64,000 nucleotides of DNA from contig LT827128.1 of assembly GCA_900170005.1 (NCBI GenBank), positions 744,001-808,000 of the forward strand, read 5' to 3'. The stretch is from Gordonibacter massiliensis (ex Traore et al. 2017). Its GTDB lineage: Bacteria; Actinomycetota; Coriobacteriia; Coriobacteriales; Eggerthellaceae. Position 1 is the stretch's first letter. Each line of letters begins with the position of its first letter. The notes below the pieces were generated by a model, which saw only the letters and a list, made by a program, of their open reading frames with translations, made no database searches and was not told where the DNA came from. Shown here piece by piece: positions 5,182 through 39,026 of this stretch. A program made the translations under genes and the position numbers.

Positions 5182-6522
5182 CTAACGCGTGCGGCGGCCT
5201 TCCAGACTCTCGCGGTACCTTCGTTTCTCGGCGTACATGAGCTTGTCGGCGCGGTTCACCAGGATGCTCGCCGCTTCGCCGGCGTCGCTCCATACCGCGC
5301 CGATCGAGGCGCTGGCCACGTCGTCGTTCGCCGCGCGCTCCCTGAGCGAGGCCGTGCGGGCCTCGAACTCCTCCCGCTCCAGGTTCGCGGCCAAAACGAC
5401 GAACTCGTCGCCGCCTATGCGGTAGACGTCATCGGGGAAAAGATCGCATACCAGGCCGCTCATGCGGCGTATCATGAGGTCGCCGTACGAGTGCCCCTGC
5501 GTGTCGTTTGCCAGCTTCAGGTCGTTGATGTCGACGAACACCACGCCGAACGAAGCGGGCGGGCGCTCGTCGAACTCGTCCAGCACCTCGAGGTACCGGT
5601 TGCGGTTCCCCACGCCGGTCAGGCTGTCCACGCGCGAAAGCTCGCCCAGCCTGTCCAGCAGCTTCCGCTTCTCCAGCTCGTTTTGGATGAAGTACGTCAG
5701 CGAGCGCAGCAGCATGAACTCCTCGGTGTTGCGCCGCGGGTTGTCCACGCCCAGAAAGGCGATCATCTCGCCCGCGGCGTCGTGCACGGGCACGGCTATC
5801 AGCGAGTCGATGCCCTGCGGAGCGAGCGTCTTGTACTCTTGGGAGTCGTGGTCGAGCGTGCGCTCCGCATCGATGATGTGCACCATGCCCACAGCGTCGA
5901 AGCTCTCCATCCAGCTTCCGAAGTCGTCGAAGGATATCTCCTGCAGGTTGTCGATTTCGGGCGAGACGCCCGCGGCGCACCACTCGTAGGTGTTGCTCAC
6001 GTTGTTGCCCGTCGTCGATTCGAACAGGTAGGCGCGGTCGGCGTCGTAGAACTCGCCGAGCACGCAAAGCAGCTCGTCGATGCCCGTGCCGCCCTCCGTG
6101 TCGCCCGAAAGCGTCCGCGCGCAGCGCACGAGCGTGCGCTCCACGTCGAGACGCGCCTGCAGGTTGCTGCGCTGCTCCATCTCCTCGGTCGAATCGCTCG
6201 CCACTTCGAGGCGCAGGGTCTCGCCCTCGACCTCGATGAGCTTGTCTTGGCAGGTGTAGTAGCGCCCGACTCTTTCGTTGTACGTTTCGAAGCGGCAGCG
6301 GCCCTCGCGCAGGAGCCGCCTGTTCGTGCAGCTGGGGCACGGTTTGTCCCGGCCCTGCAAAACGGCGTAGCACTTCTTTCCCAGGTACTCGCGCTCAGAC
6401 ACGCCCAGGACGGTGCGCCCGGCCTCGTTGAGGTACAGCAGCTCGTTCGTGTCGATGGTGCAGACGTATATGATGTTGTCGCTGGCTTCGGTGACGATGC
6501 CGGCGATGTTGGTTCTGTCCAC
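5182..6522 (-). CDS. PAS-GAF-GGDEF diguanylate cyclase
   Basis: This 446-residue signalling enzyme should make cyclic di-GMP from two GTP. No transmembrane segment is seen, so it is probably cytoplasmic. Residues 1-110 form a PAS domain, with a CPSC motif (GRDKPCPSCTNRRL) often seen where a cofactor or zinc is bound. Residues 125-270 form a GAF domain, and the GGDEF domain follows. Its active site is intact (YRIGGDEF, about residue 365). The usual RxxD product-inhibition site upstream is LFPD, so feedback by c-di-GMP is probably absent. The start is GTG at 6522, with AAGGAG eight bases before it. It diverges from the GGDEF-EAL gene. Confidence 0.9.
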   Translation of the reverse strand: MDRTNIAGIVTEASDNIIYVCTIDTNELLYLNEAGRTVLGVSEREYLGKKCYAVLQGRDKPCPSCTNRRLLREGRCRFETYNERVGRYYTCQDKLIEVEGETLRLEVASDSTEEMEQRSNLQARLDVERTLVRCARTLSGDTEGGTGIDELLCVLGEFYDADRAYLFESTTGNNVSNTYEWCAAGVSPEIDNLQEISFDDFGSWMESFDAVGMVHIIDAERTLDHDSQEYKTLAPQGIDSLIAVPVHDAAGEMIAFLGVDNPRRNTEEFMLLRSLTYFIQNELEKRKLLDRLGELSRVDSLTGVGNRNRYLEVLDEFDERPPASFGVVFVDINDLKLANDTQGHSYGDLMIRRMSGLVCDLFPDDVYRIGGDEFVVLAANLEREEFEARTASLRERAANDDVASASIGAVWSDAGEAASILVNRADKLMYAEKRRYRESLEGRRTR

Positions 6523-6632: not shown

Positions 6633-6661
6633 ATGGCAATCGAGCTTGCTGGGGATATAAT
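6633..6661 (+). promoter_or_regulatory. candidate promoter of the GGDEF-EAL gene
   Basis: A perfect TATAAT at 6656-6661 stands 17 bp after ATGGCA (6633-6638, 4 of 6 to consensus). This gives an untranslated leader of about 95 nt before the ATG at 6763. I looked for a c-di-GMP (GEMM) riboswitch in that leader and did not recognise one. Confidence 0.5.
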
Positions 6662-6762
6662 GGTCGTAATGTCGCGTTCGCCCGTCAGCGAAAGGGCGTG
6701 CGCACGAGCGGCCGGCGCCGTTTTTCGGCCGCGGTCTTGGTTTCGCTCATGGAAGGAACGCC

Positions 6763-8604
6763 ATGCGGGATGCTTCGGTGGGGGGGGGGGTCTCTGAGAG
6801 AGGTCCCGGAGGTTCCGCGCGCTCGCGTGCGGGCGTGACGGCAGCCTGCGTCGTCGTCTGGATCATCGGCGCGGCGCTGCTCATCTCGAGCCTCGCGCAG
6901 ATGCAGAACTACGCGTCCATCATCAACAACGCCGGCGTGGTGCGCGGCGGCACGCAGATGGCCGTCAAGCTCGAGATGGCCGGCGTCCATGCGGACGCCA
7001 TCGCCGAGCGCGTCGACGGGCTGCTCGTGCAATTGATCGGCAACGAACGGGTGCGCCTGTTCAAAACGTCTGCCTCCGACGCCGTCTTGGACGATTTGCG
7101 TGCCGTGCAGGACAAGTGGCGCGTCATTAGGGACGAGGTCGAGGACGTGCGGTCCGGCGCGCCAAGCGGGGCTCTGCTGCAGGCGAGCCAAGAGCACTGG
7201 GAGCTCGCCGACAAGGCCGTCAAGGCCGCCGAGGTGCGCGCGAACTCCGAATCCCGCCTCATGCTGTTCGTGAGCGCCTTCCTCGTGCTGTTCACCACCG
7301 CGATCATCGTGCTGCGCGAGCGCGACAGCATGAAAAGGCAGCGAAGGATCTTTTACACGGATCCTTTGACCGGCGGAAGCAACCTGGAGGGCTTCTGCCG
7401 TCAGGCCGCCAAGGAGATAGCCGCCGCCCCGCCCTCCACGTATTTGGTGGTCTACACCAACATCGTCCACTTCCGGTTCATCAACGACTCGTTCGGCCGC
7501 ACCGCCGGCGACGAGCTCATCGTGCGCCTGTACGAGATATACCGCGAATCCTGCGACGGCCTGTGCGCCCGGGCGGATTCGGACCATTTCGCGTTGCTGA
7601 TGAAAAACGATCCCGTGGCGCTCGAGGCGCTTTGCGCGAAGGTCGACGCCGACCTGCGCGCAGCGGAGGACCTGCATTTCACCGGCACGCTGTCGTGCAA
7701 CTACGGCGCGTACGTGGCCGACGACCCGAACGTCGGCGTTGCGTCCATGGTGAGCGACGCCGCGCACGTGCTCAAGGCGGGCGCCAAGGAACGGGGGATC
7801 GCCTACTACACCGAGGCGTTCCGCGCCAAGCTCAGCAGCGAGATGGAGATCGTGCAGGGCATGGCCGACGCGCTCGAACGCGAGGAGTTCCAGCTGTACT
7901 TCCAACCTCAGATCGACGTGCGCACAGGGATGCTGACGGGGGCCGAGTGCCTCTGCCGCTGGCAGTCGTGCGAGCTCGGCTTCATGCAGCCGAACGCGTT
8001 CATCCCCGCGTTCGAGCGCTCCGGGCTCATATCCGAGCTGGACTTCTACATGCTGGAGCGCGTGTGTCGGGCGTACCCTCTGCTCCTGCCGGGCGATCGG
8101 GGAGGGGCGCTGCCCGTGTCCATCAACTTCTCGCGGCCCACGGTGCTGCAGGACGGCTTCGTCGAGCGGTTCCTTGAGATCGTGCGGAGCCACGACCTTC
8201 CTTCCGAGGCCATCGAGGTGGAGATAACGGAAGGCGCGTTCATGGTCGACGAGGCCGTGGTCATCAACGCCATGGACACGCTGCGCGCAGAGGGCTTCCG
8301 CATAGCCATGGACGACTTCGGAACGGGGTTCTCGTCGCTCAACCTGCTGCGCAGGCTGCCGATCCAGGTGCTCAAGCTCGACAAGGAGTTCCTGCGCGAA
8401 GGCTACGAGACCGACCGCACCCAGTCCATCTTGAGCGACATCGTGGGCATGGCGCAGCATTTGGGCATCCGCACCGTTTGCGAAGGGGTCGAGACGCCCG
8501 AGCATCTGGAGCTGCTGCGCCGGATCGGCTGCGACACGGCCCAGGGCTTCTACTATTCCCGTCCCGTCGATTTGGAGTCGTTCAAGCGCACGTACCTGGG
8601 CTAG
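6763..8604 (+). CDS. membrane GGDEF-EAL protein, probable c-di-GMP phosphodiesterase
   Basis: This 613-residue protein has two transmembrane helices (about 25-46 and 165-184) around an extracytoplasmic sensor of about 115 residues, then a GGDEF domain (about 190-330) and an EAL domain (about 350-605). The GGDEF motif has decayed to DSDHF, so cyclase activity is unlikely. The EAL domain keeps most catalytic residues: E of GAECLCRW (EAL reads ECL), EVEITEG, MDDFGTGFSS, LKLDKEF and CEGVETPEH. It is thus probably an active phosphodiesterase opposing the neighbouring cyclase. Codons 6-10 lie in an 11-G run, so the frame may vary. The start follows ATGGAAGGAACGCC. Confidence 0.88.
   Translation: MRDASVGGGVSERGPGGSARSRAGVTAACVVVWIIGAALLISSLAQMQNYASIINNAGVVRGGTQMAVKLEMAGVHADAIAERVDGLLVQLIGNERVRLFKTSASDAVLDDLRAVQDKWRVIRDEVEDVRSGAPSGALLQASQEHWELADKAVKAAEVRANSESRLMLFVSAFLVLFTTAIIVLRERDSMKRQRRIFYTDPLTGGSNLEGFCRQAAKEIAAAPPSTYLVVYTNIVHFRFINDSFGRTAGDELIVRLYEIYRESCDGLCARADSDHFALLMKNDPVALEALCAKVDADLRAAEDLHFTGTLSCNYGAYVADDPNVGVASMVSDAAHVLKAGAKERGIAYYTEAFRAKLSSEMEIVQGMADALEREEFQLYFQPQIDVRTGMLTGAECLCRWQSCELGFMQPNAFIPAFERSGLISELDFYMLERVCRAYPLLLPGDRGGALPVSINFSRPTVLQDGFVERFLEIVRSHDLPSEAIEVEITEGAFMVDEAVVINAMDTLRAEGFRIAMDDFGTGFSSLNLLRRLPIQVLKLDKEFLREGYETDRTQSILSDIVGMAQHLGIRTVCEGVETPEHLELLRRIGCDTAQGFYYSRPVDLESFKRTYLG
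6780..6790 (+). repeat. 11-G homopolymer at the start of the GGDEF-EAL gene
   Basis: Eleven consecutive G begin in the sixth codon of the gene at 6763. Tracts of this length slip easily during replication, and a gain or loss of one base would shift the frame immediately after the start. An ATG at 6750 in another frame reads into the same tract. Confidence 0.9.
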
Positions 8605-38900: not shown

Positions 38901-39026
38901 CACCCTCCAACCTATTCGAGTGACCCGTCGTCTCGTCTCTCGTGTGAACCCCCCCCTCTCTCTCAAACCTTTCGACGGGCACGTGAGCATGCGCACCTTC
39001 CCCTTCTCCTCAGTGCGCACTGCATG

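Follow-up and report, generated by a model that had tools for sequence, protein, structure and literature searches.

A poly-G tract in the first codons of a GGDEF-EAL gene as a probable slippage switch of a c-di-GMP phosphodiesterase

The locus and its reading frames

The window analysed here is a 64-kb stretch (bases 744001-808000) of the complete 3.95-Mb genome G000, a single-contig assembly of 99.8% completeness, and the gene under study in it carries a run of eleven Gs (G11) in its first codons (Table 1). Its 613-residue product has a membrane-anchored N-terminal region and matches two Pfam domains, GGDEF (E = 4e-10) and EAL (E = 1.2e-67). In an alignment with solved EAL enzymes the motifs ECL, INFS, EITE, DDFGTG, KLD, EGVE and QGF are intact, with the metal-binding and catalytic residues of an EAL phosphodiesterase in place, and the GGDEF motif is degenerate (RADSDHF replaces RxGGDEF) and does not qualify as that of a diguanylate cyclase. 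The combination of intact EAL motifs with a degenerate GGDEF motif leads us to read the product as a phosphodiesterase and not as a cyclase, and it should be a c-di-GMP phosphodiesterase, as a preliminary description of this DNA had taken it to be. That description also gave the divergent neighbour as a cyclase gene free of such a tract, and this gene indeed has an intact GGDEF motif and no G run.

Table 1. Features of the locus (positions counted from the first base of the window)
Feature	Position	Strand	Basis or remark
G11 tract (proposed slippage switch)	6780..6790	+	sequence; codons 6-9 of GGDEF-EAL gene
GGDEF-EAL gene, 613 aa	6763..8604	+	ORF, Pfam, alignment with solved EAL phosphodiesterases
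Divergent PAS-GAF-GGDEF gene, probable diguanylate cyclase	5182..6522	-	GGDEF motif intact; without tract
Shine-Dalgarno GGAAGGA	6751..6757	+	5 nt before ATG 6763; duplex energy -5.5 kcal/mol
Promoter-like ATGGCA-17-TATAAT, 10/12	6633..6661	+	promoter score; shuffles mean 0.0
Alternative ATG	6749..6751	+	weak Shine-Dalgarno; in frame with gene only at tract G9 or G12
Second alternative ATG	6770..6772	+	frame as 6749 (gene in frame at G9/G12); Shine-Dalgarno 12 nt upstream
TGA	6795..6797	+	stops ATG 6763 frame immediately if tract is G12
TGA	6836..6838	+	stops ATG 6763 frame if tract is G10

The tract begins at codon 6 on the plus strand and lies where it was first reported, at 6780-6790. We took a run of at least nine identical bases in a 5' coding region or promoter as one mark of a contingency locus, and a break of the reading frame by a one-unit change of length as another; this tract has both. 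There is no excess of 8-G words in the window as a whole (5 against 4.2 expected), and the only other G/C run of at least eight bases in it is a C8 at 38949-38956, between the end of a gene and a likely terminator. ATG 6763 sits 102 nt 3' of the TATAAT of the promoter-like sequence, which puts the tract in the transcribed region rather than in the promoter, and a role for it as a promoter-spacing element is ruled out, since the TATAAT lies about 120 nt upstream of it. Two other starts were considered and rejected: GTG 6778 would still include the tract, and GTG 6835, the sole in-frame start 3' of the tract, has almost no Shine-Dalgarno sequence (-1.7 against -5.5 kcal/mol for ATG 6763). The tract would belong to the transcript and, with the best start in use, to the translated region; the earlier placing of the start upstream of it fits ATG 6763, which has both a Shine-Dalgarno sequence and a promoter.

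With eleven Gs, and equally with eight or fourteen, the frame of ATG 6763 runs through the whole protein. At G10 this frame ends at TGA 6836, and none of the ATGs reads the gene; at G12 only the weaker-placed ATGs at 6749 and 6770 read it. Thus, depending on the length of the tract, the coding frame joins ATG 6763, ATGs 6749 and 6770, or no start at all, an anatomy that would allow three levels of expression (high, low and off). The preliminary description had proposed that slippage by one base ends synthesis of the phosphodiesterase and that an upstream out-of-frame ATG at 6750 might rescue a shifted frame. Such an ATG exists, at 6749-6751 and not at 6750; frame analysis finds the rescue possible at G9 and G12 but not at G10 or G13.

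The ortholog and the sibling locus

Comparisons were made with one genome per species, and a single clear ortholog of the window gene was found within the genus, in G066 (78% identical). At the same offset as the window's G11 it carries G9, a difference in tract length between related genomes, although G066 is an assembly of 82% completeness in one contig, so that its homopolymer counts are less trustworthy and may contain sequencing errors. The DNA upstream of the two starts is unrelated. Three ATGs, one per frame, lie before or at the tract of the ortholog; the one with the best Shine-Dalgarno sequence would read through at G11, and with the actual G9 only an ATG overlapping the tract reads the gene, which is how an attenuated phase would look. 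A protein search for close relatives was uninformative on the tract, since its GGDEF-EAL matches were only about 30% identical and came from other phyla. In two homologs from different species of the genus of E. lenta (L122 and L123) a G10 follows ...KFAT at the gene's 3' end; such a tract might switch the C-terminus in place of the start. Codons 3-6 of a 44% identical homolog (L125, G054:C67) contain a run of ten Cs (ATGAGTACCCCCCCCCC). One more G066 GGDEF-EAL gene (L230) has a tract, which was not counted, as no clear start codon precedes it.

The strongest single piece of evidence found is a sibling locus in the same genome, a GGDEF-EAL-PAS-GGDEF gene (G000:C1:2316740) whose tract occupies the same position in 11 species from four genera, with lengths from 7 to 14. 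The leader is conserved in nine of these species, five from the genus of the window, three from that of E. lenta and one from a third; two more, including one from a fourth genus, carry a G9 at that position, and a twelfth homolog, in G086, is without a tract. (The loci recorded are L189, which is the G000 gene, and L190, L191, L192, L232, L233, L235, L236 and L238.) In the nine species the tract lies about 57-65 bases after the start, and the leader, GGCGATGCGTCCTGCATGG, contains two ATGs in different frames that are both open up to the tract, frame A reading MRPAWELG... and frame B MGTWNRKRL.... With tract lengths of 7, 9, 9, 10, 12, 12, 12, 13 and 14, three of the nine have the gene in frame with ATG-A, two with ATG-B and four with neither (OFF); the pair of starts that a three-state arrangement needs is present in all nine. 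Substitutions in the leader are few. The leaders of G053, which we take to be the Eggerthella lenta type strain, and G055 differ at 1 of 60 bases, and their tracts are G14 (ON-A) and G12 (OFF); those of G000 and G067 are identical, with tracts of G9 and G12. On this comparison the sibling locus bears the signature of a putative contingency locus that is retained by selection as its tract drifts in length, and the window tract is, as far as its sequence tells, the same arrangement in a sibling gene.

A candidate switch and competing explanations

We propose, as the probable explanation of these arrangements, that G11 serves as a contingency switch: the tract, in the 5' coding region of the gene for a c-di-GMP phosphodiesterase, would change length by slipped-strand mispairing. 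At G11 (or G8 or G14) ribosomes starting at ATG 6763 would make the whole enzyme; after loss of one G they would stop at 6836, and for want of any other in-frame start this would be the OFF state, and after gain of one they would stop at 6795, but ATGs 6749 and 6770 would be in frame and would probably give low expression. The dose of phosphodiesterase would then differ among the cells of one population, and the window locus would be one of a set of poly-G tracts at c-di-GMP genes. We infer slippage in living cells, with its effects on expression, c-di-GMP and behaviour, from these arrangements. The form of a contingency locus had been recognized in the preliminary description, and it gains support from the different tract length of the ortholog (G9) and from a sibling tract whose length changes among 11 species.

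The competing explanation that survives best, though we think it unlikely, is neutral homopolymer growth: without MutS and NucS, runs past about eight bases would expand wherever they are tolerated, and the window tract would lie in a dispensable 5' extension of a gene that starts at GTG 6835, its length being without effect. The genome offers some support for such growth. G000 has 46 G runs of at least nine bases against 11 of exactly eight, a bimodal distribution of lengths; the corresponding counts in its four congeners are 45-56 and 2-21. In about 1.05 Mb of sequence, a sample chosen for long runs whose counts are unbiased only up to length 8, runs of five, six and seven Gs number 1,209, 117 and 6, after which the long class rises; this steep fall up to length 7-8 means that the long runs are not the tail of base composition. 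Searches of the genome for MutS_I and NucS gave no match, and both searches matched in control genomes. A distinct class of long runs together with the lack of a MutS_I or NucS match fits growth by slippage without mismatch repair, and nearly all of the 46 long runs are intergenic, a picture that alone would favour the neutral reading. The strand of the G runs in G000 is mostly plus at 0-1.35 Mb, minus at 1.36-2.32 Mb and plus at 2.55-3.88 Mb, a pattern that resembles replication strands, but with unequal arms.

At the window gene itself, neutral growth finds support in GTG 6835, which is conserved in the ortholog, and in the closest paralogs (about 44% identical), most of which start just before the membrane helix, near the position of this GTG, with no G tract there; the stretch from tract to helix is only moderately conserved. 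Against it, the Shine-Dalgarno sequence of the GTG is almost nil in the ortholog as in the window gene (-2.7 against -10.7 kcal/mol for the ortholog's best ATG), and the codons after the tract stay open and are partly conserved in the ortholog (SExGP...SR). In addition, coding DNA has hardly any long runs, which makes a G11 in the first codons unusual.

The distribution of the tracts among genes also bears on this question. Counting as 5'-end tracts those on the sense strand within 150 bp of a start or in the first codons, we found 11 in G000, and five of them belong to c-di-GMP genes: the window gene, the sibling GGDEF-EAL-PAS-GGDEF gene, a GAF-GGDEF-EAL gene, a dCache-GGDEF cyclase gene and another GGDEF gene. 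Poly-G runs sit at c-di-GMP genes of this genome much more often than chance allows, by a post hoc test (P~1e-7 against about 40 genes with c-di-GMP domains in about 3,300) that used a home-made gene caller trained on GC3 and purine bias and an estimated gene total; even so, the departure from chance is a strong one. This gathering argues against neutrality, as does the keeping of one of the tracts across four genera. Of the four c-di-GMP tracts outside the window, two are located in coding starts or immediately ahead of them, and two at the promoters of cyclase genes. At the dCache-GGDEF cyclase gene (G000:C1:908142, L156; L221 in G067) the tract is G12, and G10 in G067, directly 5' of a conserved TACAAT -10 element, so that a change of length would alter promoter spacing, a possible promoter-spacing switch; at the other GGDEF gene a G10 (G12 in G066) lies just 5' of a conserved TTGACA/TATGCTAG stretch. 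The preliminary description had supposed that slippage would switch only the breakdown of c-di-GMP, which is too narrow in view of these two cyclase genes with poly-G in or near their promoters. The tract at G000:2802433 was counted as a 5'-end tract only, since its orthologs suggest a start 3' of it. Outside c-di-GMP signalling the set includes genes for a bacterial sugar transferase, a Big_2 protein and a LysR regulator; the G10-G12 tracts at G000:C1:1539099 (L160), 3814333 (L176), 1362829 (L158) and 3262177 (L174) are those at these 5' ends and one that joins hexapeptide-repeat and nucleotidyltransferase ORFs in frame. Most long G runs look like neutral growth without mismatch repair, and some of the tracts at 5' ends may be there by accident.

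Transcriptional slippage can occur on G runs of such length, and a tract might accordingly tune expression through slippage of RNA polymerase or of the ribosome, giving each cell a fixed mixture of frames with no heritable switching of DNA length. In the window gene, in its ortholog and in the sibling gene alike, the tract follows starts in at least two frames, as would suit such tuning, but a tuner would be expected to hold one length, whereas behind near-identical leaders the genomic tracts differ in length by frame-changing amounts; we consider this explanation very improbable. Least credible is that the lengths are errors of sequencing or assembly and the true tract is fixed, for although long-read and 454 assemblies err most often in homopolymers and G066 combines low completeness with a single contig, the window genome is nearly complete in one contig with the gene in frame, the presumed E. 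lenta type strain has its G14 at the sibling locus, and runs of at least nine recur in all five congeners.

Proposed slippage switching in a c-di-GMP network and known systems

Beyond the slippage switch proposed for the window gene, we give an even chance to a wider picture in which Eggerthellaceae without MutS and NucS would have a c-di-GMP poly-G phasome, its phosphodiesterases switched by frame and its cyclases by promoter spacing, together with an old three-state switch, kept in three or more genera, whose single tract picks either of two N-termini or no protein. E. lenta and its relatives are common gut actinobacteria noted for metabolizing drugs and dietary compounds. If such switches operate, cells of these bacteria would differ at random in c-di-GMP level while their surroundings stay the same, perhaps varying surface and biofilm behaviour through it, and slippage switching would be placed inside a second-messenger network. 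The kind of device, a simple-sequence contingency locus, is known. Our literature search on Eggerthella, Gordonibacter and Coriobacteriia found no report of slippage switching, one paper on phase variation in E. lenta describing inversions, and neither the concentration on c-di-GMP genes in Coriobacteriia nor the three-state form was found in the papers searched. What would be new here, and is worth testing, is the target network, the lineage and a three-state form kept across genera.

Several known systems resemble parts of this arrangement. In lic1A and lic2A of Haemophilus influenzae, starts in different frames before a tetranucleotide repeat give more than two expression levels. The multi-frame starts are alike; the repeat there is of tetranucleotides, whereas the two frames at the sibling locus here would give two different N-termini, both kept in nine species. 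Homopolymeric-tract contingency loci of Neisseria, Campylobacter and Helicobacter have been surveyed (PMC6321876, PMC5084427, PMC2823697), and they share with the present loci a long G or C run in the 5' coding region, one-base changes that lead to early stops, and several genes per genome. Those loci act mostly on surface structures, unlike the c-di-GMP enzymes of a high-GC gut actinobacterium in which mismatch repair was not detected by our searches. Repeat length alters the spacing of promoter elements at nadA of Neisseria meningitidis (PMC2791445), as may occur at the dCache-GGDEF cyclase tract, although the repeat and the regulator are different. In Vibrio, 9C and 9T homopolymers in putative diguanylate cyclase genes mutate often in mutS-deleted lines (PMC5854121); these too are homopolymers in putative cyclase genes, but the lines are mutators, and 5'-end multi-frame tracts kept across genera are not described there. 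Finally, PdcB and PdcC of Clostridioides difficile are phase-variable c-di-GMP phosphodiesterases (PMC9286219), with which the window gene would share the random, reversible switching of such an enzyme in a gut bacterium, but PdcB is switched by promoter inversion and not by slippage in a coding region.
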